The notes beneath the pieces were generated by a model, which saw nothing but the letters and a program-made list of their open reading frames with translations, was not told the DNA's origin and did no database searches. 64,000 nucleotides of DNA from NCBI GenBank assembly GCA_914767715.1, contig OU612069.1:28579387-28643386 (forward strand). Direction: 5' to 3'. The position numbers were made by a program, and so were the translations under genes. Of this stretch, positions 964-53,200 are shown piece by piece; the first letter of the stretch is position 1; each line of letters opens with the position of its first letter. The DNA comes from Membranipora membranacea. Lineage: Eukaryota > Bryozoa > Gymnolaemata > Cheilostomatida > Membraniporidae.

Positions 964-3900
964 TTACAGTTCAACTGTATACTTGATGACTGCTATCGTT
1001 AATATGCGATCTTGGATGAAAATGACCATATAAGAGCCATCATGGTTTCTAGCACCATCGTGACCATTCCATGGTTGACTCAGATGTGCAGCTCCGAGAT
1101 GGTTTCTCCCAGTGATAAGCTTACACAACAGCATAGTGTACTCTCTACCTCCAGTAGCGTTTACCGCATATGGATGGGATTCATCTGCAGTGGCGGCAAA
1201 GTATGCGCCTTTCCCATACACATGAGCTGCAACGAGTAAAAAGATTTGTCGAAGCCAGCAAATATATCAGATATGAGTTGGATTATAGCTTTCTATCCTA
1301 CATGCAAGCAAAGAAAAATTGTCGAATAACTCAAGATGGCTGGCTGAGCATAGCATACAACTCAGGCTTCAAATATCAGTCAAATACTAATTCAAAACAG
1401 AAAAATCATGGTCTCAAAGACCCTTTGAAGAGGAATAACTCAGGGAATGACTTTACTTTTGATTTTACTCAAATCAAATCCCTTCTTTGCTATCTTCTTA
1501 GCATAATCTTGTCGGGTTCCATGCCAGCCATAGGTTTCAACTGATCGCATTCCTCTTCTAAGTGATTTGACATGCTCTAATTCTCTCATATATCTAGAGT
1601 AACTTTCTCCCTTTCCTATCGGTAATTCCTGAAAATAAGCAAGATATATCAAGCCCTGGAACTGGTATATGTTTTTGTGTCAGCACATAGTATCCCATTC
1701 CTTTGATACATTATGACATAACTTTTTGCCCAAAACGATGCAATGCAACTTCAAGAGAGTCAGCATTGACCACACAGTAAGTAAGTTTCTGTTCGGTATG
1801 AAGTAATGGAACACCAACAAAAACTGCTTGGGTATTGTGTGTGATATATTATGATATTTTCAAAAGGATGAATGTATGACTGGAAGAATGTAGTGATTTT
1901 AAAATGTCACTATTGATGCTGCCATTCTGTTTATTCAAAAAGATTCTCATATGAATCAAACTTCACACAATCATACCTCTACAGTTTTTATCTTGATGCT
2001 TCTGTCTCGCCCCATAGATTGTCTAAATGCTTTTGCAGGATCTGAGTAATCTGAGGCAGGATTGATGATCTCATTATAACCGTAGGTCTGAACATACTGA
2101 GTTCAGTCAAACAGTCCCTCTCAATAATCTAATACAATAAAATATATGAGAATGATTTATAATGTATGGTTTGGATAGTTTGGATTGAAAATGTTTTGAT
2201 TGAAAAAGCAATATCATAAGGTTTTGAGTACAACTGCAAACCTGTTGGTTTTTATGGTCATCCTTCCACACAACTATGACAATCTTCTTCAGTGGACTGA
2301 CTTTCTGCCGGAAAAGAGAACAGGCATCGAGAATTGCTTTGATGACCTCTGTAGCTGGATAGTTATTGATTCCAGCGCCGATCAGTGGAAAAGCTATTGA
2401 CGAGAGACCCATATCGTGTGTGATGGCAAGTGATCTCTCGAGAAGTGACATGATTCTCTAAAACAATTGTAAGTATTAGACTTTTCAATACATTCCCCTC
2501 GACACTATGCAAAATAAGTGTTTGATTATAATGAGATCATTTTGTTTAGTTTTTTTACCTGCTTGAGAATCTATATATAATATTATTATTCATCAATCAG
2601 GCATGATAATTAATGTGATTGATTTAAAATACAAGCATGTCCTGGATCAATTACCGGGATTGTCTTCCCATATATGATCATAACGGCTCAATCCTATTAG
2701 TATACTTACAAGATATGTTCCATCTCCATCATAACTCGTTGGGACACAGAAATGGACAATCTTCTTGGGTGATCCTTCTCCCTTATACAACTCATGAGAG
2801 TCTGTAAATCTCAATTCTCCCCATGACCATGTTCCATGTTTTGCGTCAGCTAGATCGTCTACCAAAGCTTGCCCTCCACGTTTGCCAAACTGAGAAGCTA
2901 TGACACCTCCATTTAGCACATTTTCTGTGTCATACTCTTTTTCTCCTACTGAATTACCGACAACATCGCACTGCAAGAAGAAAACTTGTTCAGATATTTA
3001 CAAATACCAAAGTGTTTTTGGCAAGAAATAAGAAGGAAAGTTTGTTTGACATTTGCTTTGTAGCTGGCCAATCTAAGCTTGCAGTAGATTGCAGCAATAT
3101 AACACTTCATTATCTTACCTGGTAATCTAAGATGTCTGACTGTGTCACAATGTAGAGATAACCGTCTGAGTGAAATTTTGTTTTGAATCTAACTGAAAAT
3201 AAGACAAGCCTAGTTAACTTATCTTCTATATAAATGAATGCAATTGTTCGGCACTATTTTTAACGTTTGTCTTATCAATGCTGTTTGTCAGAACATGCTT
3301 ACGTCTATGCAACAAAGTTTCCAAAGATAATGTTCTCTGGGCCTGTTATCTGCCAATAATCTTATCACATTATAACTAGTCAAGGCCATTTAATAAGCCT
3401 ATATTAAACAGCTTTTACAAACATGTGTAGAGACTCAATTATTAAGGTCTAAGAGCGTGATGTGTCGCACATCTTATCAACAACTATTTTCGGGCTCGAC
3501 CTCAGAGATGATTTGTAAAAGTACACAAAGTATTCAGAGCCGAAGATGTGGTTGAAAGCAGTAAGGTTCTAGTACAGAAAATATCTGATAACCCATTACT
3601 TGGAAGTTTCCAGTGTGCAGTTTCAGTTTTCTATTCAGGCTCAGGTCATATTATCTATGTCAAAACTTATGTTCATTATTGTGAATAGTGAATATGCCTT
3701 TGACCGAAAGGCGTGATATTCTATCATAGCTACAGGATGTAACGTACAACAGCAAATATGTTAAGAATAAGAAAGGAAAGCGTTGCAGCATACATATTAG
3801 TTTTGTCATATCGCAACATCCATGACAAGATAGACTTGCATGCATAACAGTTAGGTCTGATTTATTGGGAAGCCAGATGTTGTTTAGCTAACTGGTTATC

Positions 3901-7504: not shown

Positions 7505-9930
7505 CAAACTTACCAATGTAATCTGATATGTCTACTATCGGCTTTGAGATGGTGATCTCTAGTTGTGTATCAGGCTCATCATCAAGAAAGTCATCCCCCC
7601 ACTCATCATCTCCATTAGAATCGCTTTTCCTTTTCTTCTCAGACATGAATAACAGCGAGCCGAGAGTGCCTTCTCTCTGAGTTGAATCTAATTCTATATA
7701 GATTGCAGAGCAGCTTGGAGTTATGTCACTTTTGACAAGCAGAGATCTTAGTGCATACTTGAAAGCAGAAACATCAGGGTTATTGTTAAACCCTGCCTTG
7801 GAACGGATCTTCGAAAACAATGTCTCAATATGGTCCTGTCCTAGTTGATACCCACGAGTATACTTTGGATCAGGATAGGTCTCAAATATAAACTTAGAGA
7901 GGGAAATAAATGATGTAGCAGCTGTACCAATCCCTAAAATAAATGTCTTGCGTGCACTCTCTGCTATTGGTTTGCCAGTTAGAAGCTTCAGAGTTTGGAG
8001 ATAGTCAAGAATTTTCGTTATTGACTGTTCCGTGTACTTAATATTGGCTCGTCTGAGATTGCTTTTAAATCCTCCTCCAAATGGGCTACTGCTATTTAGC
8101 ATATCAAACAGCCTGTCCATCTGAAATAAATTATAAAAAACAACATTGAATTTAAAATAAGTATTGTAACATAATATTACCAATTTGTGGTTGTGTATAA
8201 ACATCATTATATTCCATATAACAATGGCAAGAGATTTAAAAATCTGCTGCTCTATTAACTCGAGCAAAATGCAATAAACCTACAGCTTTCATACGGTCAA
8301 AAATTTGATTAAATTTTGATGGCCAGCACTAGCGTATTATTGAATGTCAATATTATCATGAAATAATAGTGAATTTCTTACATTACGGATATATGTGATA
8401 GTCGGACCAGCATCTTTGAAATTGGCATCAGTTTTGAACAAGTATTCCAATGCATCTGCGACTGATGAGGAGAGCAGCTGTGCTGCCAGTCGCACCTTCA
8501 TTTTCATTATTTGCCATTTCATATGAATTCATAGAGAGTTTATTGGCTAGCCTTACTCCCATCGACTCCTGAAGTTTGTCGAGACTTTCCACATATCCGA
8601 AATCTACTTCGCCATCTTCAGATTTGAATCTCTTTATCGTACCAAATGCATTACGAGCAAGCTTGAGCATATGAGCGGCATCAAGTGCGGTATAGACCTC
8701 ATGGTTCATTGTCGGATGCTTGAAATATGGCTTTGAGGGGATTTTAGCTCCAAGTTTTTCCAGTGGAAGCACATTGGAACGAGCTCCGTCGTATGTGATG
8801 TTCATGACTTTCATTCCGTTCTCAGCAGTCAGTGTCAGGCATTGAGTGATAAGCTGCTTCTGTACAGTGCTGTCTATCTTATCAACTAAGAAGTAGCCAA
8901 TAGGATGCCTCGGGCCTCCTAACAATGGGACAAGGAAAAACACAAGAGACTCACTAGCCATTTTCTGCATATCCTGACCAATGGTAACATAGCCTTCTAC
9001 CTTCTGCGTGTGTTTATTCATTATCAGTCTTTTCCGAATGAACATGCTGTCTAGTACCAAACTATATGGTTTATTATCTTGACTAATACTTTTGATGACA
9101 TCCACAAAGAATCCAGGCTCTCAATTTACTGTCTCAAACCATCGCCTTAAAGTCCTTGTTGATGGTAGGCTGAAATTCTTACATAAATACTTATATGCCT
9201 TGGGTGAGTAATAATGTATTGTTATGGCGAATCTTTTGATGTCATCGCTGAAGGAGCGAAAATTTTTCTTTCCCTTATTACACACCTCCTTTTCCACAAG
9301 CTGTCCAATCACTCCATCTATGACATCGAGCTTTGCACAATGAAGTTGATTGTCTTTTTTTAGTATACCGAGTAAGTTACGCTGGACTCTGGCCTTCTTT
9401 TCCAGTCGACTTGTGCGCTGCTTTACAGTTTTTATTCGTCTTAGAAGCTTAGGAATTCTTACATGTGGGCTGATCTTGGGCCGACCTGGTTTTGGAGTTG
9501 GTTTTTCAGGTGAATCTTCAATTGATGTATCCGCTTCTGGCTCCTCTCTAATCATGTCTCTTCTTTTTTTTGGTTCAGATGATTGCAAATGCAATGGATG
9601 CTCTGAGAATATTCTTGGCATAGCGTCTGGTCTTAGCAAAGTCCTTTTTCCAGGTGTATTTGGAAGAACTCTGTACGCGCTGACCTCAAAATGTTCACTA
9701 CATAGCCTCGTTGCTTTTGAGGGAGTCCAATCTTTACGCTTTACAGCTTTTATCCATAATCTTCGATGCTCAGGCTGTTTTTCTGAGGGGAACGGGTGAA
9801 AACTGAGCGAAGGATTGTAAGCTGGCGCATTGCTGCATCCAAAGAAACAACAGCATTTTCTGCTAAGCTTCGGGGTTTGAAAGATTAAAATGCTGGGTTG
9901 TGAATTGCAGTGAATAATTGATAAATTCAC
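7494..9930 (-). mobile_element. decayed P-element transposase with THAP domain (THAP9-like)
   Basis: The N-terminal frame 9930-9121 carries a THAP zinc-binding domain (CCFFGC, then a Trp, then CSEHF, then LRPDAMPRIF), a basic region and a coiled-coil-like stretch. After an in-frame TGA (9121-9123) the same frame continues with the P-element RNase H-like domain: Asp in LVLDSMFIRKRL, Asp in TYDGARSN, then LDAAHMLKLARNA. Near 8520 a one-base frameshift moves into the frame holding KVRLAAQLLSSSVADALEYL. An intron follows: donor after TYIRN at about 8378, acceptor before MDRLFDMLNS at about 8120. The C-terminal region ends in an acidic tail (DDEPD) and then a donor-like site at about 7510. One nonsense codon and one frameshift make it inactive. 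Terminal inverted repeats were not identified. Confidence 0.85.
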
Positions 9931-10157
9931 ATGGATGAGATAAACGGTTTGAAGAAAAGATCAAATATCAAAGATCAAATAAGGACAATACCTGGCAGCA
10001 AAGGAAGGTATAGTCATTGTATCACAGTTACATACCGGTTCGGAAGATCCGCTCTGGCCTGGCTTATCCATTGTGATCAAATAGTGCTTAGCTTGATGAG
10101 TGTTACATCTGCTGTGTACTCAGAATCTAGAAAACTGTTGCTATATTGATGACTCCA

Positions 10158-13600: not shown

Positions 13601-16046
13601 TGACTTGCTCGTTGTGTTGCCATGAGTACCATCATACCCCAAGACCAAAGCAGACAGCAACAATAATACTGATAAGATTTAATTATTGAAATCATCCCAC
13701 TCGTTACGGTGAGATACCTGCAACTTGCTCATTGACATATCGACACTGTTTTAGAATAATAATATACATTATAACATCATGCAATAATTACCTTCTCTTT
13801 TAGTAAGAGAGGACAACTCTGCGTTATTCTCATGAGTACCTTAACTAATATCACAGTTAAAAGAAAGAAATGCCCTTAGCCGTTCGCTGTGTCCAATTAG
13901 AGTACACAAATAGGAGTACATTATTGTACTTACTTATATCATAGGTAGACGGTGTCATATTATGCTCTCTTTGTTTTCAGACCCCGATATTTCTCGCCAG
14001 TCACACAATGCACTGGAATGAAATGATGTGGGATTCTCCCCAAAAGTGAGTTTGATAATACCTTGACACCATTTTGATGATTAAAACAATTATTCAGACT
14101 GAGTGAAAGTTTGTAGTTGCTTCTCCTACCATGTGATTTAAAGGCATGAACTACCGAGCAATCTGCGAATAATCATTGAAATCAAACAAGAATAAGTGGA
14201 GTTATCGAATTCCTTGGTTCCCTATACCTCTTAGAAAATCGTTTGCAAGACTTCTTGTTCAGTGATAATTAAACTAAAAATAAGTGGCATTTATGTCAAA
14301 AAGCTGGGAGGTTAGGAGCCTTCCAAAGTTTGGCTGATTGCCAGATCATTCAAGATGACCTAGAATATTTTTTGTTAAAGAATTACCTGTTCTGCAGCTG
14401 TCCTGATGCAGCTTGCTGGCTTGACCTGAATTGAAACAGACAGCAGCAGAAGTTGCCACAAACCGCAAGTCACTATATACATGAACAGACATGGTAGATG
14501 TGATCTAGAGGGAGAAACCATACAGAATTATATATTCAAATGATTTAAGGTTTAACCCCGACAGATTATTATATTATATTATATTATATTATAGATGCAC
14601 TTTATTTCACTGATCAATGTTCTGTCAAAACAAATGAGATCATGTGTAGACATCAAGATGAAGTTAATTACTAAGAAGAATGAATCTATAAAGTAATCTA
14701 AAAAATTGCTCTCTGGTCAGGAAATTACACGGAAAATAATTCAAAAATATCTAAAGAACAGATTCTTCCCCAAGTGTGCAGTTCTACTTTTTGGTGGAAT
14801 AGTTCTGCGACTGTGAGTGCTAGGCCGACCGGGTATGTAACAGTGAAGAATATGATGGTCATCAGCTAAGATCTTATTGGCATACCGGAGGCATACTATA
14901 TCTAGATACACATTGAGTTCCTCTAATTTGAGAAACGCCAACCTATCGGCGTAGTGTTCTAATCGGGGAAGAATAATGAACAAGCACAGCCTTTGGTATC
15001 CCTCGAGCTTGTCTTTGTCATATTTTGCTATATATGGGTACCAGCTCGGTGCTGCATACCAGATGATTGACAGTATGCCAGCCTGATAAAATAGCACAAG
15101 ACCTGATGTAGCGACACCTGCTTTCTTTAGATTAACAAGTGCATGGTAGGCTGATCGAGATTTGGAGATAACATTGTCAACATGGGTAGTGAACTTCATG
15201 TGAGAATCGTATGTTACTCCTAGCAGTTTGGTGTGATTGCCGATTTGCACATTGGCGCCGTTGATTGTTACTGGGTCAATGGAAATCGACTTCTGGAGTG
15301 TAAAGTACATAGCTGTGGACTTAGAAGCATTGAGTAGCATAAAGTTGTCATTACACCACTGTGATGCATAGTCGGCAGCTTTCTGTAGTATGTTACTATG
15401 TAGTGATACAGTGGCTTTGTGTGCTGTTGTGTTGCTGACGAGAGCATCTGCTGATGATTCGGCAGTGTATATGGTGGTGTCGTCAGCATACTTCACAAAG
15501 TCTGCATCTGGAGTCAGGTCATTTATGAAATTTCTGGATATGTTTATTATTGAGCCCTTCAAGTTTGAACCATTTGGTATCTGTAAAAGAAAATGTCCAG
15601 GATATCGCATGGCTAATATGGAGGCTCAAATATTTCTTATCCTTCTGCTCAAAAACTTCAAGGTAGCTCACAACCACAATCACCAATGACACGCCATGCT
15701 AGAGTACTGTGAGCATATAGTTAATTAATCAATAGTCAGCTCAGGGCAGCTTTCAAACATTAAATTATAAGTTCCTTTGTAAAATGCCAATTAGTCAACC
15801 CCGATTTGATTCTGCCCTTACGCCTTGTAAAAATGTTACGTTTTTACCAAACAAAGTGAGGTGCCCTGCTGACTGGCTGCAAGATGGTACTCGTAGCTTG
15901 TCATCCACTCAGTAAATGTGATTTATAACATTTTGTTGTTCTTTTATCTTTAGGTGACCTTGCTGCCAGATCAGCCACTCAAGTATAAGTTTGGTATCCT
16001 AGTGAAGCCAGATGTGGAGATTTATGCATCTGTGGAGAAAAGATAG
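10629..16046 (+). CDS. CYP20A1: cytochrome P450 20A1-like, partial or incomplete
   Basis: Exons found: 10629-10738, 10881-10959, 11324-11414, 11768-11838, 12238-12358, 13201-13266, 13981-14045, 15954-16046 (TAG). Phases agree across the first five exons and between 13266 and 13981. The reading follows CYP20A1 as I recall it: a block with DGPLK and LLKERQ, an I-helix-like FTGMQDVANTS, then VFWALYHLANHPEVQ, a K-helix-side block with RLTPLVPF, a block ending in MMWDSPQK and a C-terminus starting VTLLP. CYP20A1 is an orphan P450, normally anchored in the ER. The N-terminal anchor, the EXXR micro-exon (expected between 12358 and 13201) and the heme-cysteine exon (expected between 14045 and 15954) were not found. 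The gene is therefore either a pseudogene or has exons I could not recognise. An antisense non-LTR fragment fills part of the last intron. Confidence 0.7.
13043..13204 (+). repeat. degenerate ~29-bp tandem repeat of a splice acceptor
   Basis: AG dinucleotides ending at 13056, 13085, 13113, 13171 and 13200, plus a mutated one near 13143, are spaced 28-30 bp apart. Each is preceded by a T-rich tract and mostly followed by a variant of tacttactggctg. The last AG is the acceptor of the CYP20A1 exon at 13201. Confidence 0.65.
14567..15610 (-). mobile_element. 5'-truncated non-LTR retrotransposon (RT C-terminal part)
   Basis: The open frame 15610-14741 encodes the end of a reverse transcriptase with the catalytic FVKYADDTT motif, followed by the thumb and a typical C-terminal region (LLGVTYDSHMKFTTHV). 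The 3' end has a short UTR and a tail of ttata repeats at 14567-14593, as in CR1/Jockey-like elements. The fingers and the endonuclease are absent, as expected from 5' truncation at insertion. It lies antisense inside the last CYP20A1 intron. Confidence 0.85.
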
Positions 16047-17949: not shown

Positions 17950-19835
17950 CCTATGCATACCACCAAAGGAAGTTAAAAAATATGCCAACAAAAAGCCGTG
18001 GATTACAAAGCGCATTCTGGATATGATAGATGAGAAACATGACGCCCCCAAAAATGGAAATAAAAAACTCTACCATAAACTCAAAGAGCAAGTCTCAAAA
18101 GAAAACAAAAAAGCCAGAGAAGAATATTCCCTAAAAATCCAACAACATTTAGCCAGTAATCCTGCAAACGCTTGGAACGACATTAAAAAAATTAGCGGAC
18201 TTCCAACCAACAACTCCAAGTCACCACCAGATATTATCTTCCTACCTGAAGAACTCAACAACTTCTTTGCCAGATTTGGGAAACAAGACACTCAGCCACC
18301 ACAACCTGCTTACAAAAACCTAACTGCTCCTCCCTGCACAATAGATGAAAAATCAGTTCTGATACAACTCAAACGCCTCAACTCTAGAAAGGGTGCTGGA
18401 CCTGATGGTCTTATACCAAGAGCATTAAAACTCCGTGCTGACCAACTAGCGCCTGTAATTACGGATATATTCAACTTCTCTCTAGACTCTCAAACAACTC
18501 CTAATAAATTATATGGAAATCGGCCATCATCAAACCACTGCCAAAAACTGACAAGCCAAATCAATTTAAACACTTCCGACCAATAGCCCTGACAAGCTGC
18601 TTATGTAAAACAATGGAACGTCTGCTGAAAAGCTATATAGTTCAAAACACTCCTCTCGACAATCACCAATTTGCCTACCGAGCTAAAAGATCAACCCAGG
18701 ATGCAGTATTATGCCTTATTACCACAATAACTAGTTACATAGACCTTCAAGCTGCCAACTATGCAAGATGCCTATTTCTCCACTTCTCGTCTGCATTTAA
18801 CACCATCAGTGTCAGTAATCTCCTCACAGAACTGCAACATCTAGACTCCAGAGTTACAAACTGGGTGACAGGCAGAACACAAAGAACAATAGTAAACAAT
18901 ATTCTCTCAACATCAATCACCACCAACACAGGAACACCCCAGGGTTCCGTCCTCAGTCCTCTATTATTCTCAGTGTATACAAATAGGATTAGGTTAGAAC
19001 AGAGCAATATAACTATTTTAAAATATGCTGATGACACTTGTATTGCTGGTTGCACCGCTGATAATAATGACTTGTCTAATTATTTTAATTGAGATCAATA
19101 GAATCTCTGGTCTATGCAAAGAACTCGACTTATTACTTAATCCTTCTAAAACCCAAGAGATGCTTTTCTCCACTAAGCGAGATAAACCTGACAGAATTAA
19201 ATGGGGTAAAAAAAGATTTTTGTGACAATGTTAAATATTTGGGAGTTCTCTTTGATAACAAATTACGTTTTGAAGATCATGTCAATAATGTTGTATCCAA
19301 AGCAAATCAGAGAATGTTTGTCATCAGAACCTTCAATTATCAGAGTACAAATTTAGCCTGCATGTTATTTAATAGTTTTATTGTATCCATTCTAACCTAC
19401 TGCCTACATATTTTGTTCACTAGTATTTATTCACGAGACAAGAAAGCTCAGAGAAAGTTTTTTAAGCAAGGCGACAGACTCGGTCTTGATATTGGGGACC
19501 TAGATTCAGTCATATCAAAACGTACAAAGAACCTGGCCCTGCAGATAATACATGATGACGAAAATTTGTTTAACAATTTTCTTGAGAAACTCCCCTCAGG
19601 CAAATATCGCAGCCTTAAATACAGAACTGCCTGGGGTAAAGACTCATTCCTCAGACACTTGATTTTGATATTACAAGATATTTTTTAATCCACTAGAAGT
19701 CAGACTTTACTTTACTCATTTTGTTTATGTTTCTTTTTGGTATTCCCTACTCATGTAACAGTATAAACACTCAATCTCGCAGCATACCTAATGTTTGTGA
19801 CAAAATAAACCAACTAACCAACCAACCAACCAAGA
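17950..19835 (+). mobile_element. degenerate non-LTR retrotransposon (RT)
   Basis: The reverse transcriptase is spread over shifted frames: about 17970-18510 (connection region, RKGAGPDGLIPRALK), 18520-19092 (motif A region LFLHFSSAFNTI, TGTPQGSVLSPLLFSVY, LKYADDT) and 19100-19688 (thumb and C-terminus). Motif A has His where the catalytic Asp normally stands. At least two frameshifts and the His make it inactive. The 3' end terminates in an aacc-repeat tail (about 19805-19835). No endonuclease domain was seen. Confidence 0.85.
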
Positions 19836-32640: not shown

Positions 32641-33087
32641 GCTGGAAAAGCTAAGCTAAAACCTGACAGGCTAAAACTCGACAAGCTAAAACCTGACAAG
32701 CTAAAACCTGACAAGCTAAAACCTGACAGGCTAAAACACGACAAGCTAAAACCTGACAGGCTAAAACACGACAAGCTAAAACCTGACAGGCTAAAACCTG
32801 ACAAGCTAAAACCCGACAAACTAAAACCTGACAGGCTAAAACCTGACAGGCTAAAACCTGACAGGCTAAAACCTGACAAGCTAAAACCCGACAAGCTAAA
32901 ACCCGACAAGCTAAAACCTGACAGGCTAAAACCTGAAAAGTTAAAACCCGATAAGCTAAAACCTGACAAGCTAAAACCTGACAAGCTAAAACCTGACAAG
33001 CTAAAACCTGACAAACTAAAACCTGACAAGCTAAAACCCGACAAACTAAAACCTGACAGGCTAAAACCTGACAAGCTAAAACCTGAC
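32641..33087. repeat. 15-bp minisatellite, about 29 copies
   Basis: The unit is acctgacaagctaaa with variants. Because 15 is a multiple of 3 it stays open on the minus strand (33074-32637, 145 residues of an SGFSL repeat). Nothing supports translation: no splice context, no flanking coding sequence, and the ORF ends soon after the array. Confidence 0.9.
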
Positions 33088-38531: not shown

Positions 38532-41500
38532 ATGTCAGCTCCAGCAGCGGAGGGAGGCGGGACTAAGGGCGGGACTAAGAGAGTAGCTCGATGGTACCAT
38601 GGAGGGTTGGCCTCAGCTACAGCAGCTATGTGCACTCATCCCCTTGATCTACTCAAAGTACATCTACAGACCCAACAGAAAGTACAGTTAGGCCTAGTCG
38701 GTATGTCACCACCTTACTCTGTCCGTAGTCGGTATGTCACCACCTTACTCCTTTTCTTCGGGGTATTCTGGTTCGACTACAACACTAATGACACCTTCAC
38801 CGGACCATTTGTGTTGTAGTTGAGTGAGGCATGAAAAGTAATTTGTTGTCTAGCTTAGTTTGAAAAACTGACCAGGCTATCTGATAGCTTGATAGAATCT
38901 GATGCTACTGAACATGTTCAAATATTGGATTTTGCCACAGAACAGAGCAAGGATATTGCTGGTAGTTGGTTTGTCAGTATACTAACCCTCGCATTACTGT
39001 GTTAATAGTAAAAAGACACAGTTATTGTATTAGATGTGGTGAATATTTGATTGATAAGTTGACAGTTACTGTCACTGATTTTATTAATTATGAACTAAAG
39101 CCGTTCCTGTATATTATCTGGCGCTGGAGTACTAAACGGTAAAGGCTTCATGAATAGCGTGCAGAACAGAAAGTAGGAAAACGTTATCAATTTTTTGGTT
39201 CATTGGAACAACCAAAAACAGCACAGTGATGCCTTTTCAGCAGGCCACCAATGCCTTTATGAACTAACATAACTTTTTGAGCTCAGTTTTTACCCTCAGA
39301 TTAGGCCGGTAGTATCACAGAGTGGTAGTATGTTAGCTACATGCAGCTCACAGTCTTATCTCCTGCAGTAATGTTTACTTTTGTATCATGTTATCACAAT
39401 ATGTGGCCATGTGTGTTTTATCAGGACCCTGGGTATTACCTGAACTTTGACCTTGAGTCAGATGGATGCAGCCTGAGGTCACTCACTTAATTAATGGCTT
39501 AATCAGGACAACAGGTGACAATAAATTACAGGAATGGAGCATATTTCATTATAATGCAAAAAATATGCCTACGACAAATATACCTTACGTTACTAGAAAC
39601 TTGTATCTGCTAAACAACAAAACATAGTCTCTCATCAAAAGAGTCAAATGGGGAGTGCAAAAAATACAATTTCGGATTAGCATAAGTATCCAGCTAGCCC
39701 ATACAACAATTTACCGGAGCCATATTTGTGTTGTGAAGTTGCACTTGGATCCATTGCTTTCCCTCATATCAATAGAATTATTATAATCATAGCCTAATCC
39801 TTGAACCTGTTACAGCCGGTTTCATCTTGCCCTTATTATATGTGTATACAAGTGTATAGAAAGTTAATGTAAGCATTTTGTTGCCATGTCATATAGGCAT
39901 ACTTAAAATACAAGGGCAAAATGTTTGATCCCAATGATCATACTTTGACACTAATAGTCACAAACCTGTTAGTAAAATCCTACCTTGGTTGATGCATTTG
40001 ATTTTAACAGCCTCTATTCCTCAGTGCTACTTTGAAATAGTGAGACATGATTTAAACCACTGTGTTACCCAATGATCCGATCTTATCATAAATGTCCCAC
40101 AGGCCTATCTCTTTTTGACTCTCCGCTGACGGGGTCTTATTTTGACACTGTTGTTCGCTGGATGTTCCCAGTAAAAATGACCATGAAATATATGAGTTTA
40201 TTGTCTCGACCAAACATAAAAAATCACTTTGTTTTGTATGTGGCCGGATGAGTGTCACTTTTAGAACTGTTGGTCCTTATTGGTAAGAGCATACAAGGAC
40301 CTGTAGTTTGGCATGTTCATGGTTGGGCCCACATATTGTTATCTTGTTGTGTTATTTTACAGGTATGGGTAAACAGGTAGTAAAGAATGAAGGTATACTA
40401 GGATTATATAATGGTATATCAGCTTCTATAGGCAGACAGATGACTTACTCATTAACTAGATTCGCTGTATATGAACAGATCAAGGTTAGTTACTGTGTAG
40501 TTATGATAGCTAACCCTTGCTGATTATAATATGGTCTTGTTTGATGATCATTCCATTCAATGGGAGCAACACTTGAGTTGTTGGTAATCACATAATCCAA
40601 GTGAGGCCCATGTGGGGTGGAGGGACATGCTGTGTGATTGAGTGTGATTGAGCTAAACCTCTTCGAATTTTAATTATGGTAATATGTAGTCGGACATGCC
40701 GTGCCGACTGAAGGAGGTGTCCTCCCCTTTTCGCGCTGTGGCCTGATCCAAGATGTCCACATTTTCTACCAAGTCATCTTATTAAAATAACTCACGTCAT
40801 AAGTCAAGTATAAATCAGTAGGCTATATTCGGAACACACATTTGGTATAAATTTGATTATCATTGTCAATTTTCGTTCATTTACTTTATTATTTTTGCTT
40901 GACATAACTTTCATATTTTTACATGTCATGTGAGTTATCGGCAACACACAAAGCAACTTTATTCTGATGGCCAACAGAGTTTTTAAGGAGAACATTTGTC
41001 CTAATATAACTGATCCTTCTACTCCCTCACAGTTCCTAAATGAATTAATAGTTACATGAGATGATATGTTCTGAAATATTACTACAGGGTATCCGGACTC
41101 AGGGAGGTAAAGATCTCCCATTTTATGAGAAGGTGCTCATAGCTGCTGGTGCTGGGGGACTCGGTGGATTCGTAGGTAACATATTATCTATCTATATACA
41201 TGTATCTATATATCTCTCTAGTATCAGTTATCTCCCTGTGTCTATTGGCTTTGGAGATTGGCATATTGACTTTCTTGGGCCTTGCCGATTCACATGTCAC
41301 ATTGTTACATATGTAATACAGAAGAATTTTTTGCCGATCACATGACACTCCTGGTTGCTAGTGCTTCAACTCTTACTGCTCTCGGTGCCTGGTATTCCTG
41401 ATTGTGCCCAAGATTGGGTAGAGAAAATAAGTTTTCCTCTGGCTCTGACACAGTTTAATCGTAGATGAAGCTTTATCCGATTTGCCAGCATTTGTAGGGC

Positions 41501-44500
41501 GCTCGCATTCTACTAGTAAGCCACTGGCAAATGTCTTTTGCATGCGGCTTACTAGTAGTTTGGGAGTAACCTTTTCGGGCAGTTCAAGAGGGAGCAACTT
41601 CAAAGTCGAGCAGATCATATTTGATTTAGTTTACTCCTGTGCCTCACTCATATAGCAGACTTTCTCTTATACAGGTACACCATGTGATCTGTCTCTTATA
41701 CAGGTACACCATGTGATCTGTCTCTTATACAGGTACACCATGTGATCTGTCTCTTATACAGGTACACCATGTGATCTGTCTCTTATACAGGTACACCATG
41801 TGATCTGTCTCTTAAACAGGTACACCATGTGATCTGTCTCTTATACAGGTACACCATGTGATCTGTCTCTTATACAGGTACACCATGTGATCTGTCTCTT
41901 AAACAGGTACACCATGTGATCTGTCTCTTATACAGGTACACCATGTGATCTGTCTCTTATACAGGTACACCATGTGATCTGTCTCTTATACAGGTACACC
42001 ATGTGATCTGTCTCTTATACAGGTACACCATGTGATCTGTCTCTTATACAGGTACACCATGTGATCTGTCTCTTAAACAGGTACACCATGTGATCTGTCT
42101 CTTAAACAGGTACACCATGTGATCTGTCTCTTATACAGGTACACCATGTGATCTGTCTCTTATACAGGTACACCATGTGATCTGTCTCTTAAACAGGTAA
42201 ACCATGTGATCTGTCTCTTATACAGGTACACCATGTGATCTGTCTCTTATACAGGTACATCATGTGATCTGTCTCTTATACAGGTACACCATGTGATCTG
42301 TCTCTTATACAGGTACATCATGTGATCTGTCTCTTATACAGGTACACCATGTGATCTGTCTCTTATACAGGTACACCATGTGATCTGTCTCTTATACAGG
42401 TACACCATGTGATCTGTCTCTTATACAGGTACACCATGTGATCTGTCTCTTATACAGGTACACCATGTGATCTGTCTCTTATACAGGTACACCATGTGAT
42501 CTGTCTCTTATACAGGTACACCATGTGATCTGTCTCTTATACAGGTACACCATGTGATCTGTCTCTTATACAGGTACACCATGTGATCTGTCTCTTATAC
42601 AGGTACACCATGTGATCTGGTCAATGTTAGATTACAGAATGATATGAAGATACCAGTAGACCAGAGAAGGAATTATAAACATGTGTTTGATGGATTATAC
42701 AGGATAGGTAGATTCGAAGGTGAGAGTTTGTTACACCTGTGTCCCATCTCTGCCTTCTTGGGTAATCGCAAGTCTGTCTCTGTCCAAAGAAAGTGTGACT
42801 GAAACCCCATTAATTTGGTCTCAGTGAAACTATGATGAATAATCTCTTGTAGTTCTTCAAAAAATTGCATCACCTCCATAGACAGTCTTCAATTCAGTAA
42901 CTTAAAAAGTCAGTCAACTTCAATGCTTGTAGTTTTGTACAGGTAGCTGTCAACGTCAATTATGTGTAAGCTAGTTTGTTCTTACTTAATGATCACATTA
43001 AAACACACCTGTCAGTAGTGGATAATGATCAGTCAAATAACCAGATAACCAGACTGTTTGCCTTCTGATTAGGAAATGAGGTAATGTGTGTCAAAGTTAG
43101 TACAGTGTACAGTGAGTGTATTACATATAATCTGATCTTTGCTTGTAGGCCCCACATCATTATTCGGTGGAGCTGTGATGGCCAGTTCTCGAGCTGTACT
43201 TGTTACTATAGGACAAGTAGCTATGTATGATCAGCTCAAACAGATGCTGCTAACTACAGCCTACTTTGAGTATGTATCCCTCCCAATGCCTACCCTAGAG
43301 GAGTGAATATTATCTTGTGTTTAGATTAGTTAGATCGGGAGTGACCATCTCTTGTGTTTAGATTAGTTAGATCGGGAGTGACCATCTCTTGTGTTTAGAT
43401 TAGTTAGATCAGGAGTGACCATATCTTGTGTTTAGATTAGTTAGATCGGGAGTGACCATCTCTTGTGTTTAGATTAGTTAGATCGGGAGTGACCATCTCT
43501 TGTGTTTAGATTAGTTAGATCGGGAGTGACCATCTCTTGTGTTTAGATTAGTTAGATCAGGAGTGACCATCTCTTGTGTTTAGATTAGTTAGATCGGGAG
43601 TGACCATCTCTTGTGTTTAGATTAGTTAGATCGGGAGTGACCATCTCTTGTGTTTAGATTAGTTAGATCGGGAGTGACCATCTCTTGTGTTTAGATTAGT
43701 TAGATCGGGAGTGACCATCTCTTGTGTTTAGATTAGTTAGATCGGGAGTGACCATCTCTTGTGTTTAGATTAGTTAGATCGGGAGTGACCTTCTCTTGTG
43801 TTTAGATTAGTTAGATCGGGAGTGACCTTCTCTTGTGTTTAGATTAGTTAGATCGGGAGTGACCTTCTCTTGTGTTTAGATTAGTTAGATCGGGAGTGAC
43901 CATCTCTTGTGTTTAGATTAGTTAGATCGGGAGTGACCATCTCTTGTGTTTAGATTAGTTAGATCGGGAGTGACCTTCTCTTGTGCTTAGATTAGTTAGA
44001 TCGGGAGTGACCTTCTCTTGTGTTTAGATTAGTTAGATCGGGAGTGACCTTCTCTTGTGTTTAGATTAGTTAGATCGGGAGTGACCATCTCTTGTGTTTA
44101 GATTAGTTAGATCGGGAGTGACCATCTCTTGTGTTTAGATTAGTTAGATCGGGAGTGACCATCTCTTGTGTTTAGATTAGTTAGATCGGGAGTGACCATA
44201 TCTTGTGTTTAGATTAGTTAGATCGGGAGTGACCATCTCTTGTGTTTAGATTAGTTAGATCGGGAGTGACCATCTCTTGTGTTTAGATTAGTTAGATCGG
44301 GAGTGACCATCTCTTGTGTTTAGGTTAGTTAGATCGGGAGTGACCATCTCTTGTGTTTAGGTTAGTTAGATCGGGAGTGACCATCTCTTGTGTTTAGATT
44401 AGTTAGATCAGGAGTGACCATCTCTTGTGTTTAGATTAGTTAGATCGGGAGTGACCATCTCTTGTGTTTAGATTAGTTAGATCAGGAGTGACCATCTCTT

Positions 44501-47500
44501 GTGTTTAGATTAGTTAGATCAGGAGTGACCATCTCTTGTGTTTAGATTAGTTAGATCGGGAGTGACCATCTCTTGTGTTTAGATTAGTTAGATCGGGAGT
44601 GACCATCTCTTGTGTTTAGATTAGTTAGATCGGGAGTGACCATCTCTTGTGTTTAGATTAGTTAGATCAGGAGTGACCATCTCTTGTGTTTAGATTAGTT
44701 AGATCGGGAGTGACCATCTCTTGTGTTTAGATTAGTTAGATCGGGAGTGACCATCTCTTGTGTTTAGATTAGTTAGATCGGGAGTGACCATCTCTTGTGT
44801 TTAGATTAGTTAGATCGGGAGTGACCATCTCTTGTGTTTAGATTAGTTAGATCGGGAGTGACCATCTCTTGTGTTTAGATTAGTTAGATCGGGAGTGACC
44901 TTCTCTTGTGTTTAGATTAGTTAGATCGGGAGTGACCTTCTCTTGTGTTTAGATTAGTTAGATCGGGAGTGACCTTCTCTTGTGTTTAGATTAGTTAGAT
45001 CGGGAGTGACCATCTCTTGTGTTTAGATTAGTTAGATCGGGAGTGACCATCTCTTGTGTTTAGATTAGTTAGATCGGGAGTGACCTTCTCTTGTGTTTAG
45101 ATTAGTTAGATCGGGAGTGACCTTCTCTTGTGTTTAGATTAGTTAGATCGGGAGTGACCTTCTCTTGTGTTTAGATTAGTTAGATCGGGAGTGACCATCT
45201 CTTGTGTTTAGATTAGTTAGATCGGGAGTGACCATCTCTTGTGTTTAGATTAGTTAGATCGGGAGTGACCATCTCTTGTGTTTAGATTAGTTAGATCGGG
45301 AGTGACCATATCTTGTGTTTAGATTAGTTAGATCGGGAGTGACCATCTCTTGTGTTTAGATTAGTTAGATCGGGAGTGACCATCTCTTGTGTTTAGATTA
45401 GTTAGATCGGGAGTGACCATCTCTTGTGTTTAGGTTAGTTAGATCGGGAGTGACCATCTCTTGTGTTTAGGTTAGTTAGATCGGGAGTGACCATCTCTTG
45501 TGTTTAGATTAGTTAGATCAGGAGTGACCATCTCTTGTGTTTAGATTAGTTAGATCGGGAGTGACCATCTCTTGTGTTTAGATTAGTTAGATCGGGAGTG
45601 ACCATCTCTTGTGTTTAGATTAGTTAGATCGGGAGTGACCATCTCTTGTGTTTAGATTAGTTAGATCGGGAGTGACCATCTCTTGTGTTTAGATTAGTTA
45701 GATCAGGAGTGACCATCTCTTGTGTTTAGATTAGTTAGATCAGGAGTGACCATCTCTTGTGTTTAGATTAGTTAGATCAGGAGTGACCATCTCTTGTGTT
45801 TAGATTAGTTAGATCAGGAGTGACCATATCTTGTGTTTAGATTAGTTAGATCGGGAGTGACCATATCTTGTGTTTAGATTAGTTAGATCGGGAGTGACCA
45901 TCTCTTGTGTTTAGATTAGTTAGATCGGGAGTGACCATCTCTTGTGTTTAGATTAGTTAGATCGGGAGTGACCATCTCTTGTGTTTAGATTAGTTAGATC
46001 GGGAGTGACCATCTCTTGTGTTTAGATTAGTTAGATCAGGAGTGACCATCTCTTGTGTTTAGATTAGTTAGATCAGGAGTGACCATCTCTTGTGTTTAGA
46101 TTAGTTAGATCAGGAGTGACCATCTCTTGTGTTTAGATTAGTTAGATCAGGAGTGACCATATCTTGTGTTTAGATTAGTTAGATCGGGAGTGACCATATC
46201 TTGTGTTTAGATTAGTTAGATCGGGAGTGACCATCTCTTGTGTTTAGATTAGTTAGATCGGGAGTGACCATCTCTTGTGTTTAGATTAGTTAGATCGGGA
46301 GTGACCATCTCTTGTGTTTAGATTAGTTAGATCGGGAGTGACCATCTCTTGCTTACTAAGGTAAAGAAATGAGGTGAAGTAAAATACAGCTGCCAATTAA
46401 TTATTTCATTTCAAAACCTCCTGCACATAATTCATGCTATAAGGGCATTTAATTTAGTTCTGAAATTTTAGTTAGGAAGTTATAAATGAATTTTTGTTTT
46501 CGCGAGTTGTCTTCTCCTTGATGTTGAAAAGATAACTTCTCTTTACCAGTTCCATATTCTTCAAGACCTTTGAATCAGAAAGGGGAACACTATCACATCT
46601 TGGACTTTTTACAAAATTGATCTGCCTATATATCCTATGATTGAGTTGCTGTAACCAATTCATTACTCTATCTGTTCAGCTTCTGAGAGATTTGATTTGA
46701 CCTGTCTGTCTTAATTTAAGAACATGCTACATATTCTCACATGCTGTAGAGGAGCTTGTCTTGACACCCCCCCCCCCCCTCCCCCACAATAAAGCTTGAA
46801 GACAGGCCAGATTGATAGTAAAAAAATATGAGAACTCACACCATGTTAATAGTACCCTGTGACGGAGCTCAAAAGTCACCCCTAATCTGTCCAGTTACTG
46901 AAGCCTCAGTAATTTGTGCATGGCTACCTATCTAGATGACTTCTTATATTGTTACGATAGATTTATTTTATCCTAACAATCTTTCGTTGTTGTTTTTCAG
47001 CGATAACATGACGACACATTTCACAGCCAGTATTACTGCAGCTAGTATAGCCACAGCTCTTACACAACCTGTGGATGTCATGAAGACGAGGATGATGAAC
47101 GCCCCGCCCGGTACTTACTCAGGTTAGTCATGGGCTATTTATACACAATGGTTTGATTTTCTGGTGGACATGATAAGTCATAGCGTAGATTCCGCAACAT
47201 GTCCTCATTTGTTTGTCCAGTTACATTGGTCGGTGCCAATCATAGACTTAAAAATAATAATATTAAGTCTATGGTGCCAATACAGTCCCATCTCCCGACA
47301 GAGCACAACCTTATGGTAGCTAACATCTCATCAGCTGTCCCATCTTCCGACAGAGCACAACCTTATGGTAGCTAACGTCTCATCAGCTGTCTCATCTCCC
47401 GACAGAGCACAACCTTATGGTAGCTAACGTCTCATCAGCTGTCTCATCTCCCGACAGAGCACAACCTTATGGTAGCTAACATCTCATCAGCTGTCCCATA

Positions 47501-48161
47501 TCTAGATATGAGGTCACACACTACCAGACACAACAGTACACATTTAATCCTCTCCTCCACCCATTGATAAAAAGCCAGATATACACAATCATGGCTAGTC
47601 ACATTGAGACTGTAGCACATGTCGACAGAACTAATACAAACTATTCACTGAATAAATTTTGAAAAAAAATTGTCTTTTCAAAGTTGTCCACTCTCGTATC
47701 AAAATTGCATATAAAGATAGCTCGTAAGTGTGATCTTCTTGCCTTGAGGAGCAAATCAATTAGCTAGATTTTTATCCAACTGATTTGGGGACACCTTGGT
47801 GTCAACAAATCCAGATTGCACTGGCTGAGGTGGTAGCCAATGTAAAGTATTGAGATGGAGACAGTTTTACTTTTATTCAAGCCTACGCAAAATTATGAAT
47901 TTTTAGCTCCGCAAATTATCTATTTATTGTAATGTTATTTGAGGCTATAATTGAGGATTATTAGTGACACACATTTAGGTATCACCCTCTCCCTCTGTTA
48001 CAGGAGTCGCAGCCTGTGCCAAAGATATAGCCTCCAACGGAATGGCCTCATTCTATAAAGGATTCATACCTGCGTTCACACGACTCGGGCCGCAGACCGT
48101 GCTAACTTTTCTCTTCTTTGAGCAATTTAGGATCAGATTCGGCAAGAATGTAGCGCTGTAA
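38532..48161 (+). CDS. SLC25A10: mitochondrial dicarboxylate carrier
   Basis: Seven exons in perfect phase: 38532-38700, 40363-40484, 41088-41175, 42603-42719, 43149-43269, 47001-47122, 48004-48161. The total is 897 nt, giving 298 aa against 287 in human. The family exchanges malate or succinate for phosphate, sulfate or thiosulfate across the inner mitochondrial membrane. The three carrier repeats are visible: THPLDLLKVHLQTQQ (PxD motif in helix 1), GTPCDLVNVRLQND (helix 3) and TQPVDVMKTRMMN (helix 5). RQMTYSLTRFAVYE and GQVAMYDQ also fit this carrier. A Gly-rich N-terminal extension of about 10 residues precedes RVARWYHGG. The protein sequence looks intact, so the gene should be functional despite about 4 kb of intronic minisatellites. 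Confidence 0.95.
38697..38753 (+). repeat. duplicated 5' splice site at SLC25A10 exon 1
   Basis: The string gtcggtatgtcaccacctta occurs twice, 31 bp apart (GT at 38701 and 38732). The first GT is the donor that keeps the frame. Confidence 0.8.
41510..41558. repeat. hairpin with perfect 13-bp arms
   Basis: ctactagtaagcc (41510-41522) and its reverse complement (41546-41558), in SLC25A10 intron 3. Confidence 0.7.
41663..42619 (+). repeat. 29-bp minisatellite, 33 copies, each with a splice acceptor
   Basis: The unit is tctcttatacag followed by gtacaccatgtgatctg. The start positions of the first (41663) and last (42591) copies are exactly 32 x 29 bp apart. The last copy is the real acceptor plus the first 17 nt of SLC25A10 exon 4. 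Variants are mainly tatacag or taaacag, and gtacatc or gtaaacc. Confidence 0.95.
43310..46352 (+). repeat. 37-bp minisatellite, about 82 copies, with higher-order structure
   Basis: The unit is gattagttagatcgggagtg followed by accatctcttgtgttta. Variant positions (cggg or cagg, catctc, cttctc or catatc, gatt or ggtt) form patterns that repeat: the block beginning at 43791 recurs at 44901, exactly 30 units later, and the cagg/catatc block near 45825 recurs 9 units later. The array fills most of SLC25A10 intron 5. Confidence 0.95.
47289..47500 (+). repeat. 52-bp tandem repeat, 4 copies
   Basis: gagcacaaccttatggtagc recurs at 47301, 47353, 47405 and 47457. Each copy is preceded by an acceptor-like tctcccgacag. 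It lies in SLC25A10 intron 6. Confidence 0.9.
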
Positions 48162-49332: not shown

Positions 49333-50270
49333 GGAATATCTAAATTATTGGCAGCTTAATACACATTGATATCGTTATCGGTCGCCGTTACAGACAATTT
49401 ATCAATTAAAAAATCTGATGGTTTTCGGGCCCAATTCATCCTGTCATTGGAATGGTGCTAGATCTCTATCTAGCCATTAGGATAAGGTGGTTGCGGTTGT
49501 AGTCTGCCACATACGATGGCGATCACCAGAGGGTTGGCTGTAGGTATTTAGAATGTGCTGCTTACTTTATTGTAACATATTCGATGCTGACTCAGTTCAC
49601 ACACAGGGCTATTATCAATGATTATTTGACAGGGCTATTAGTATTTATAACCTTGGCTACTACTGTCTTTTATCTTCTTCTTTGTAATCACCACGCTTGA
49701 GTCAATTCTTTATTGTTATTGGCTAACAGGATGTTGTTTCTCTTTCATTCAAAGTTCATTGAACCTCCATTCATCCTGATTCATAGCTATCATTTAATAG
49801 ATAAAGCTTGTCTCAGCAGTTTCACTTTCATATTTAATTGTGACATAGATAGAATGAAACTGCTTTGCTCTCAGATTTGATTCTACTGTCACCTGTGTGC
49901 TGTGTGGAGGAAGTTTTGTAGAAGGTCTTCAGTGACACTAAAGAGTAAATACTAATAGTCCAACAGATGATAGAACAGGTCACAGGAGGGGAGTTCTAGT
50001 CTTAGAGGATCACTTGTAAGTATATCTTATTAGTCTTATACCTGTTAGGCATACCTACAATGTACAATACTCTTGAGTTTGATGCATGCTATGGTATGCA
50101 TTGTACAATGCATGGATGGATTGGTTAGAGGTAAAGAAAGGTTTGGTTAGGGTACCCAGATCAACAAACCTATGACTGGTAATTAATTAGCCCAGTGAAG
50201 TGAAGTGAGGAATATTAAATAAATTATCAGTGATTTGTGGTGCTCTGCGTTGACCTCACGCCTTTTTCCT
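49333..50270. other. intergenic interval between SLC25A10 and the RING gene
   Basis: No exon was recognised. An acceptor-like cctttttcctgccag ends at 50275, suggesting that an upstream 5' UTR exon of the RING gene lies somewhere in this interval. Confidence 0.35.
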
Positions 50271-50287
50271 GCCAGATAAACCAAACA

Positions 50288-53200
50288 ATGGCGGATGCTG
50301 CTGTAGATCAGGCAGCTCAACCAGCTGACCAGCAGACTGATGGCGAATTGCCAGCAGCTGCTGAGCCACGAGCACCTGAACCAGAACCTCTACCTCCTGT
50401 AGAAGTTCCTCTAGACAAAGAGTATGAGTGTGGTTACTGCTTCACTAAATGCCCTTATATGGAAGATCCGAGGAAGTTACCAGACTGTGATCACGTGTTC
50501 TGTGCAGTCTGCTTAGATGGTAATCTGAACCCAGCCGAGGATTTTGTGTGCCCATTTTGCAAGTAAGTCGTAAACTGTTTTTGTTACTCCATTTTATAGC
50601 AACCTCAAATGCATTCAATAGCAATATTTTTTAATTCGCTTTGAAAGGCGGCATGGGGGCGTGGGCCTGGTGTAAGTGATGTCATTATACTCGATTCTTT
50701 ACTTTCCTAATAACTGGTTGAAACGAGGAATACACGCTAGCTTTGAGTTATCATATGTCACGTCTCTACAGCCTTAAGCAGGTATGGAGAACTCTGGACG
50801 ATCTCCCAAGAGCTCTGGTGACGGCTCCAGTCAATGAGGTGGAAGAGGAAAGAGCTCAGAATCCCTCATCGTGTCAGGACAGTACTAAAGACTGCAGCAA
50901 GCCGGCTGCCCACTACTGTGTTAAATGTGACAAGAGATTGTGCAAACAGCTCTATACTCAGGTAGATAAGACTGGTTAAACTCTTTGTCAGCCTTCATTT
51001 CATTGTCTTAAAGCCAAGTGCCTAAGTGCTCAAACGCTGGCGGGGTTGATATTAGTAGGATTTCATAATCAACCACATACCACATGTTGGTGGGTTTGGT
51101 TGATAATAAATAGCCAATACTAGCAACCTCTCCAACGACTGAGCACTCAGTCGATTCTGGTTGTAAAGAGTTCATTACTACTATTGACTATTATTGACTT
51201 TAGGTTCACAAACAGTACATAGAGAACGGTTTATATGGTGGTGGCGGAGCTCATCGCGTTATAGAGATCCGTGTATATAATCGAGCACCTGACAGGTACC
51301 ATGATATGAGATATCGCTGTGACAAAGAAGGCCATGATAATAAGGTCATCATCAAGGGCTGTCACAAGTGCTGTGTAGTGTATTGTAAGAGGTGTAAGCC
51401 TGAAACTTTAAACTGCAAAGGTAAGTTCTATCGAGGTAATATGGGACCTGTTACTCCATGGCACTATATCATATGCGCCGTAAACGGTTGACTAGAGTCT
51501 CATGACTAAGTTTCAGATCAATTTGAAGAAGCCACACCAATTTTTTACCAGTTAGATATTTAATAAGCCTGTTGAAGTTTTGATTTGAGACAACATGTGA
51601 TAAGATAAAAGCCGAGTTAAATCATCAGAAAATTTCCCAATCCCAATATTGTTGAGATCATAGGCTATATGGATTTAAGATTGAAGCCCACAATGCTTTG
51701 ATGTGGCCAACAACCCCTGAGCATGATGGCAATAAATCTGATCAACTTTGGAATCATCTTCTCGGTGAAGTTGTGAAGTCGTATACATATTTCTGTGGTT
51801 TTTCTGTCATATGTCCTGGTAATTACAGATGGAACAAAAAACCATGACCTGAAAGCTCTGACTGAGACAGCCGAGACTCTCAGACAGAACTACGAGGAAC
51901 TTCTGAAGAAGTTAAACGAGAAGAGCTCAGAGATAAGTAAGATGAAGAAGTCGACTTGGAGAGAACTTTACTGGCTCAACGATAAACAAGTCGAGATGTG
52001 TGGGGAGGTGGATAGAATCACACAGGAACAGGTGAGCTGGCTCATCTAGTATAAGTACAGGGTAATCAGACAAGAGTCTAATGTTAGAGTTATGTCAGTG
52101 AGCTGCTCAAACTCTGCCTTGGTTCTGGTAGTGGCGTTACATTATCAACAGCATCCCAACCATGTTGAGTTCTGAAAATGGAATGCCAAATACCAGCAAT
52201 TAGGCAGACCTTGAGCAGTTAGGTGGAGTTGTGGTCGGTTATTTTGGTTGGGAATTTTTGTAAGCTAACATTAATTTGAGCCAGCTGAGATGAGAGTCTT
52301 TATGTAGTTAGATATTTCAAGCATGCGCAAAATGGCAAACTCCTCGGCCCCCCCCCCCTCCGCAAATATTTTACTCCTCTAGGGTAGGTTCTCACATATA
52401 AGTCTACCACAACTTAAGAAACTCAGCACAGAGTATCAACACTGCATACATGATTGTATTACGATTATGATTGTGATCAATTTTCCATTTTACCCAAATC
52501 TAACTAATTGAAGTTATACCATGATGATAATATTGAATAATACTGATAACACAAATTATTGGTGGTGGAAAGAGTTCCTAAGGGAAGGTAACTCTCATTC
52601 CCTGCATCATGATGTCACTCTGTACAAGTATTTTAGGCTGGCGAGAGAATATCCTAAAAGTATTAAATGTAATACTTCTATGATGTGGAAGGTTAGTGTT
52701 ATCAGCCAGCCTTGACAATGTGTTTGTGTATATACTTAGCCATGTGATAAAATACTACATGTTAATGCTCTCATTTTTATCCAGGTTGGTACTAACCTGC
52801 TTTATCTCACCAATGAACTTAACCTCAGGTTTAGTTCATTGATCTCACTGAGGCATTGGCGTAGTATCCTTTGGGTCTTCTTAGCAAATTCCTTCATCTG
52901 TTGTTTCAAAATTTAAATTGACACATTTAACAGATTGAGGAGATAAAGAGAAAGGCTGAGGCAGTGAAGACGGAGATAGTTGAGTTCTTTAGGGAGTGTG
53001 AGTCCAAGGTAGAACAGCATCAGACAGACCTGGACATGAGACGTACAGAGGTGGATGAGCTGTGGAGAGAGACTCACATACATCTCCAGCAGGACCATGA
53101 TACTGTCAGAGTACAGCAGTACTTTGAGAGAACCGCTAAAATAACGGAGCTCTCAAATCAAGTAGTAAACCCATGTGATCTAAAGACTCTGGAGCTTCAA

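Follow-up and report, generated by a model that had tools for sequence, protein, structure and literature searches.

The closest described counterparts of the locus analyzed here come from human genes and from fission yeast. Human CBS has a 31-bp VNTR, c.1444_1467+7(16_21), in which 16-21 copies lie over a coding exon/intron boundary (PMC2630376). In its 844ins68 variant the intron 7/exon 8 junction is duplicated, the distal copy is strongly favored and a normal mRNA is made; the source terms the sites concerned 'donor' (PMC2630376). Our locus is a 33-copy array of 29-bp units in a stretch of DNA of 64,000 nucleotides, which we call the window. Like the VNTR, it is a multi-copy minisatellite of similar length (31 bp in CBS), and the name of the VNTR indicates that each of its units also has exon sequence and a junction. 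However, by its coordinates the VNTR multiplies the donor side (24 nt of exon plus 7 nt of intron), whereas the array multiplies the acceptor side, in 33 copies that each have AG|GT. With 844ins68 it shares a duplicated junction and, according to the database record P0001, a normal mRNA, although 844ins68 has two copies and a 68-bp insert and the array has 33 copies of 29 bp. The study cited for the VNTR is reportedly that of Lievers in 2001, and a 2002 study by Romano is said, by its title, to treat the 844ins68 site as a 3′ splice site.

Three further systems share the AG|GT arrangement. In UBC, processing runs through tandemly arrayed AGGT sites that are dual-specific, each able to serve as acceptor or donor, and the authors of that study consider such expansions less harmful since they can be removed by splicing (PMC10809524). 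Tandem AG|GT sites are common to UBC and the array, where dual use is predicted from the sequence, but the UBC units are 228-nt coding monomers that keep the frame, whereas the 29-nt units lie at an intron end and break the frame if retained. In the fission-yeast genes SPOG_01682 and SOCG_00815, tandem 24 bp AGGT segments have introns across four or two copies (PMC4974935). The bryozoan array likewise has several tandem copies of a short AGGT segment, yet the fission-yeast cases are new introns in an exon, with few copies, whereas here the acceptor of an existing intron has been multiplied. Lastly, at recursive-splicing ratchet points a donor regenerated at the 5′ end of an exon competes with the exon's own donor, and those described lie mainly in long introns and have strong regenerated donors (PMC8605326). 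The array units resemble these points in joining an acceptor to a possible donor, but differ from those described in that 33 copies, each with a weak donor, are clustered in an intron of 1.4 kb.

The first-pass annotation of this DNA knew of no named system like it. In view of the human CBS VNTR and duplicated junction, UBC and the fission-yeast AGGT arrays, that statement is too strong. An acceptor array of such size was not found in the open-access literature, which was the scope of our search, and the 33-copy array, sited at an old intron in a conserved gene, is a novel variant for which the CBS, UBC and fission-yeast cases are precedents. The locus offers a natural experiment on how the spliceosome chooses a 3′ splice site, whether the first AG, the one nearest to the downstream donor, one at random or one corrected by re-splicing; since the units differ so little in sequence, these models are told apart by position alone. 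The locus further suggests how a minisatellite with an AG|GT unit can grow over a coding exon boundary while the conserved gene is not destroyed.

Results

The host of the array looks like an SLC25A10-type mitochondrial carrier gene. Our gene model has seven coding exons on the plus strand between 38532 and 48161, that is, over 9.6 kb of genomic DNA, with six introns that are all GT-AG and a coding frame of 897 nt including the stop, which gives 298 aa without an internal stop (Table 1). The product has three Mito_carr stretches (Pfam, E 1.2e-55). Among the best 120 of 1466 matches, the best named ones, at 83% identity in Watersipora subatra and 81% in Bugula neritina (both bryozoans), are mitochondrial dicarboxylate carriers; relatives with solved structures include uncoupling proteins and an oxoglutarate/malate carrier. 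On the strength of the named matches, the DNA most likely belongs to a cheilostome bryozoan.

Table 1. Coordinates of the acceptor array and of the gene model that contains it
Feature	Position in window	Strand	Details
Splice-acceptor array	41663..42619	+	33.0 x 29 bp; unit = 12 nt of intron-3 end + 17 nt of exon-4 start; core CAG|GTACAC
SLC25A10-type coding exon 1	38532..38700	+	gene model
SLC25A10-type coding exon 2	40363..40484	+	gene model
SLC25A10-type coding exon 3	41088..41175	+	gene model; donor TAG|GTAACA
Intron 3	41176..42602	+	1427 nt, of which 487 nt ahead of array
Unit-33 intron end	42591..42602	+	sole acceptor giving the carrier frame on direct join to exon 3; supported by P0001
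SLC25A10-type coding exon 4	42603..42719	+	117 nt; first 17 nt common to unit; donor AAG|GTGAGA
SLC25A10-type coding exon 5	43149..43269	+	gene model
SLC25A10-type coding exon 6	47001..47122	+	gene model
SLC25A10-type coding exon 7	48004..48161	+	gene model; carries stop codon

Tandem Repeats Finder reported the array with a period of 29, 33.0 copies, 98% matches and 0% indels, and an in-register comparison gave the consensus unit TCTCTTATACAGGTACACCATGTGATCTG, with 26 of the 33 units identical and the others differing by T8A (four units), C18T (two) or T8A together with C16A (one). When the whole window was scanned with up to three mismatches allowed, 33 unit matches were found, all of them inside the array, whereas 100 shuffled sequences averaged 0.00. 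The junction of the real gene is contained in each of the 33 tandem units, CAGGTA is present in all of them, and the 32 AGGT tetramers that lie entirely within intron 3 are those of units 1-32; unit 33 continues directly into the remainder of exon 4. The first-pass annotation had described 33 tandem, nearly identical acceptors with a 29-bp unit at these positions, each comprising an acceptor and the first 17 nt of exon 4, and both statements are borne out, the former by the repeat finder, the register and the mismatch scan, the latter by the gene model. The array acceptor has a short pyrimidine tract of moderate quality, with 67% pyrimidine between -18 and -4, the same as for exon 2. The window as a whole has a G+C content of 37.8%, close to the 38% published for Membranipora membranacea (PMC10290214), a likeness that is no more than a hint at the source.

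The seven variant units are confined to units 6 to 23, and each of the final ten is consensus, an arrangement for which random placement gave P = 0.05 and 0.06, so no conclusion on selection acting on decoy units was drawn from unit variation. Masking of the decoys by RNA structure was also considered and set aside, as the 332 nt made up of the last eight units and exon 4 fold no better than shuffled sequence (-85 kcal/mol, z 1.25, with 90 of 100 shuffles equal or better). The exact 29-bp unit had zero matches in the viral IMG/VR and prokaryotic GTDB genomes, and the array together with exon 4 had zero among phage records; we did not retain a foreign origin or contamination, giving these results little weight since such collections possibly omit the window's own genome.

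Two further arrays lie in the same gene. The first (43313-46351) has 82 copies of a 37-bp unit with 98% matches, begins 44 nt past the end of exon 5 in intron 5, and includes 81 acceptor-like TTTAG motifs, 4 of them followed by GT; intron 5 has 279 YAG trinucleotides in all. The second (47285-47499) lies in intron 6 and has four copies of a 52-bp unit, each of which includes an acceptor-like CGACAG. We considered both as acceptor arrays and rejected them, because in the gene model each lies within an intron and touches no coding exon.

We then joined exon 3 in silico to every unit of the gene model. The join to unit 33 gave the full carrier protein, that to unit 32 a frameshift with a stop beginning 71 nt past the junction, and those to units 1-31 a stop at 68 nt in 30 of the 31 and at 59 nt in unit 17. 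All 32 upstream acceptors are therefore predicted to be non-productive if used directly, and to yield putative decay substrates. The first-pass claim that the last AG alone gives the carrier frame holds, and it extends to the whole set of 32 upstream units, each with a stop starting within 71 nt. Skipping of exon 4, which is 117 nt long, would preserve the frame.

One database record, P0001, indicates that a normal mRNA joined at the last acceptor is still made. This record, the best match among the best 120 of 1466, is a protein of 298 residues encoded on a 1554-nt JGI contig; it is identical to the gene model at 297 of 298 positions, with one change at residue 2, and it includes exon 4 and the exon-3/exon-4 join made from unit 33. 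Because the gene spans so much more genomic DNA than the contig, the contig of this single record is expected to represent a spliced transcript, a processed retrocopy being less likely. The next match reaches only 83% identity, so no form of the same protein lacking exon 4 is present among the 120 matches listed. When the predicted 149-residue read-through isoform was used as the query, no read-through product appeared among the best 90 of 174 candidates, and the six-residue words of the array, except the exon's own GTPCDL, were absent from 215 proteins (the best 120 of 1466, the best 90 of 174, plus 5). Since such products are rare and 120 of the 1466 matches were listed, this absence is a weak negative.

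In each unit the acceptor runs directly into a possible donor (CAG|GTA), a property that the first-pass annotation had overlooked. The duplex energy of the U1 5′ end with the unit GT in place was -7.1 kcal/mol, which 3.0% of the sampled window GTs (every fifth of 3826) equaled or bettered, and after exon 3 joins the unit it was -5.5 kcal/mol. Values for the real donors were -5.5, -6.7, -6.4, -9.6, -5.1 and -8.2 kcal/mol for exons 1 to 6, so the gene model has its strongest donor at exon 4. A donor matrix scored the unit at 0.20 in place and -1.42 when joined to exon 3, the donors of exons 3 and 5 scoring 1.32 and -1.41. With a donor regenerated at each unit, any splice chain that starts at exon 3 and ends at unit 33 would yield the same mRNA, and since each unit has AG|GT, a transcript joined early could re-splice to a later unit, and the mRNA would not show it. 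Such re-splicing could repair early joins, and the earlier argument that the gene must choose one of 33 acceptors or lose the transcript is not supported, as the AG|GT units allow possible re-splicing from early joins.

A toy model was used to illustrate what re-splicing does to this argument, and its percentages are not measurements. With uniform choice among the 33 acceptors, the productive share was 3% without re-splicing; it was 20% or 17% at a re-splicing probability of 0.5 per step, and 73% or 49% at 0.9 per step, for a minimum intron of 29 nt or 58 nt, respectively. When the first available acceptor was always taken, the share at 0.9 was 3% (29 nt) or 19% (58 nt, odd copy numbers only). 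Hops of 29 nt are probably under any minimal intron.

Five exon-4 frames of relatives were compared, of which P0211, P0213 and P0214 are informative and P0212 (4 codons) and P0215 (none) are not. In the window, the frame upstream of the exon-4 residues is open for 6 codons, with the G counted, up to a TGA at 42584 in unit 32. The corresponding frame of P0211 is open for 17 codons before GTPCDL, that of P0213, whose exon part is identical to the Bugula neritina protein P0003, is open for 22 codons before the exon-4 residues, and in P0214 exon 3 reads through a short intron into exon 4 without the repeat. The repeat is absent at the corresponding place in these three informative relatives of the five, suggesting that the array most likely arose within this animal's own lineage. 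In P0211, P0212, P0213 and P0214 the conserved residues start with GTPCDL or GAPCDL and are immediately preceded by unrelated residues, which fits an intron at the same place and identifies the exon part of the unit as the genuine start of exon 4.

Discussion

We consider it likely that the array is a lineage-specific minisatellite, grown from a 29-bp segment lying on the 3′ splice site of intron 3 and tolerated there, and that its last copy is reached by direct use together with recursive clean-up. The gene would tolerate it because exon 3 is still spliced to exon 4 at the last copy. In the history we infer, a tandem duplication would have landed on the splice site, been tolerated and then expanded. 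If units of 29, 37 and 52 bp were seeded at random in the gene, at least one coding boundary would be straddled with a probability of 0.14, and this value and the two further arrays in the gene mean that no special cause is needed for the straddling.

This reading starts from direct observations, namely the array, the gene model, the frame consequences, three relatives that lack the repeat, and a transcript-sized record with the correct join; the way in which the last copy is reached we infer as follows. Exon 4 would be defined from its strong donor, AAG|GTGAGA, which would favor the nearest acceptor, and the same donor would also compete with the one regenerated at the 5′ end of exon 4. Joining of exon 3 to an earlier unit would recreate TAG|GTACAC, from which the remainder could be removed stepwise by recursive splicing at dual-specific sites. 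Transcripts stalled at an early unit, with a stop starting at 71 nt or less, may become substrates for decay. On the sequence, it seems plausible both that the last acceptor is used directly and that earlier joins are cleaned up recursively, and the two are probably mixed.

Direct choice might also act by itself, with exon definition from the exon-4 donor picking the last acceptor and the upstream units remaining silent, so that no re-splicing takes place; we give this a chance slightly below even. The strength of the exon-4 donor (-9.6 kcal/mol) and the weakness of the regenerated one by the donor matrix (-1.42) both argue for it, as does the absence of a read-through peptide from the 215 proteins drawn from the matches listed. 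Human CBS 844ins68 provides a precedent in which the distal of two copies is strongly favored (PMC2630376). However, the 33 units here are near identical, so position alone would need to exclude 32 sites, and units 31 and 32 are merely 58 and 29 nt farther from the exon-4 donor.

At the other end of the mixture that we prefer, most pre-mRNAs would join an upstream unit first and repeated AG|GT splicing would walk to unit 33, with copy number modestly setting the share lost to decay. We regard this as doubtful. If it is true, the correct mRNA would come from error-correcting re-splicing and not from the right choice of acceptor.

The first-pass annotation also suggested that copy number could tune expression, and the corresponding explanation, in which the proportion of transcripts that decay depends on copy number and copy number has been selected for this effect, seems to us very unlikely. 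A means for such loss exists, given the early stop in all 32 upstream joins. However, nothing found here is evidence for tuning: the repeat is missing from the three informative relatives, the gene also has two purely intronic arrays, and straddling of a boundary has the chance given above under random seeding; no stop-bearing product occurs among the matches listed either, which weighs little because such products are rare.

That the array is an assembly or library artefact and absent from the animal is hardly credible, for although 14 nt of the Tn5 mosaic-end (Nextera) adapter recur at the unit boundaries in 27 places, the match ends at 14 of 19 nt, the unit holds a real exon start that the gene requires, and variant units are scattered inside the array. 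The same 14-nt likeness at the unit boundaries means that reads could be shortened by the trimming of adapters, so that retained units go unseen.

Other features of the window

Outside the carrier gene, a further repeat at 32653-33087 consists of 29 copies of a 15-bp unit and is open in one plus and two minus frames, with KLKPD repeats on the plus strand; it may be coding. A frame at 1443-1679 (minus) is PARP-like by eye and had zero Pfam matches, and a Macro-domain frame lies at 2110-2457 (minus; Pfam Macro, E 2.2e-7). At 50234-50563 (plus), a RING-finger-like frame opens a probable TRIM-like gene, with zf-C3HC4 barely over its cut-off and two other RING models under theirs. Reverse-transcriptase fragments are found at 14744-15625 (minus) and 18508-19089 (plus), the latter alone reaching the curated RVT_1 cut-off, and fragments of a THAP-domain, P-element-like transposase occupy 8431-9960 (minus; Pfam THAP, Tnp_P_element, and TNP-like RNase H and GTP-binding domains).
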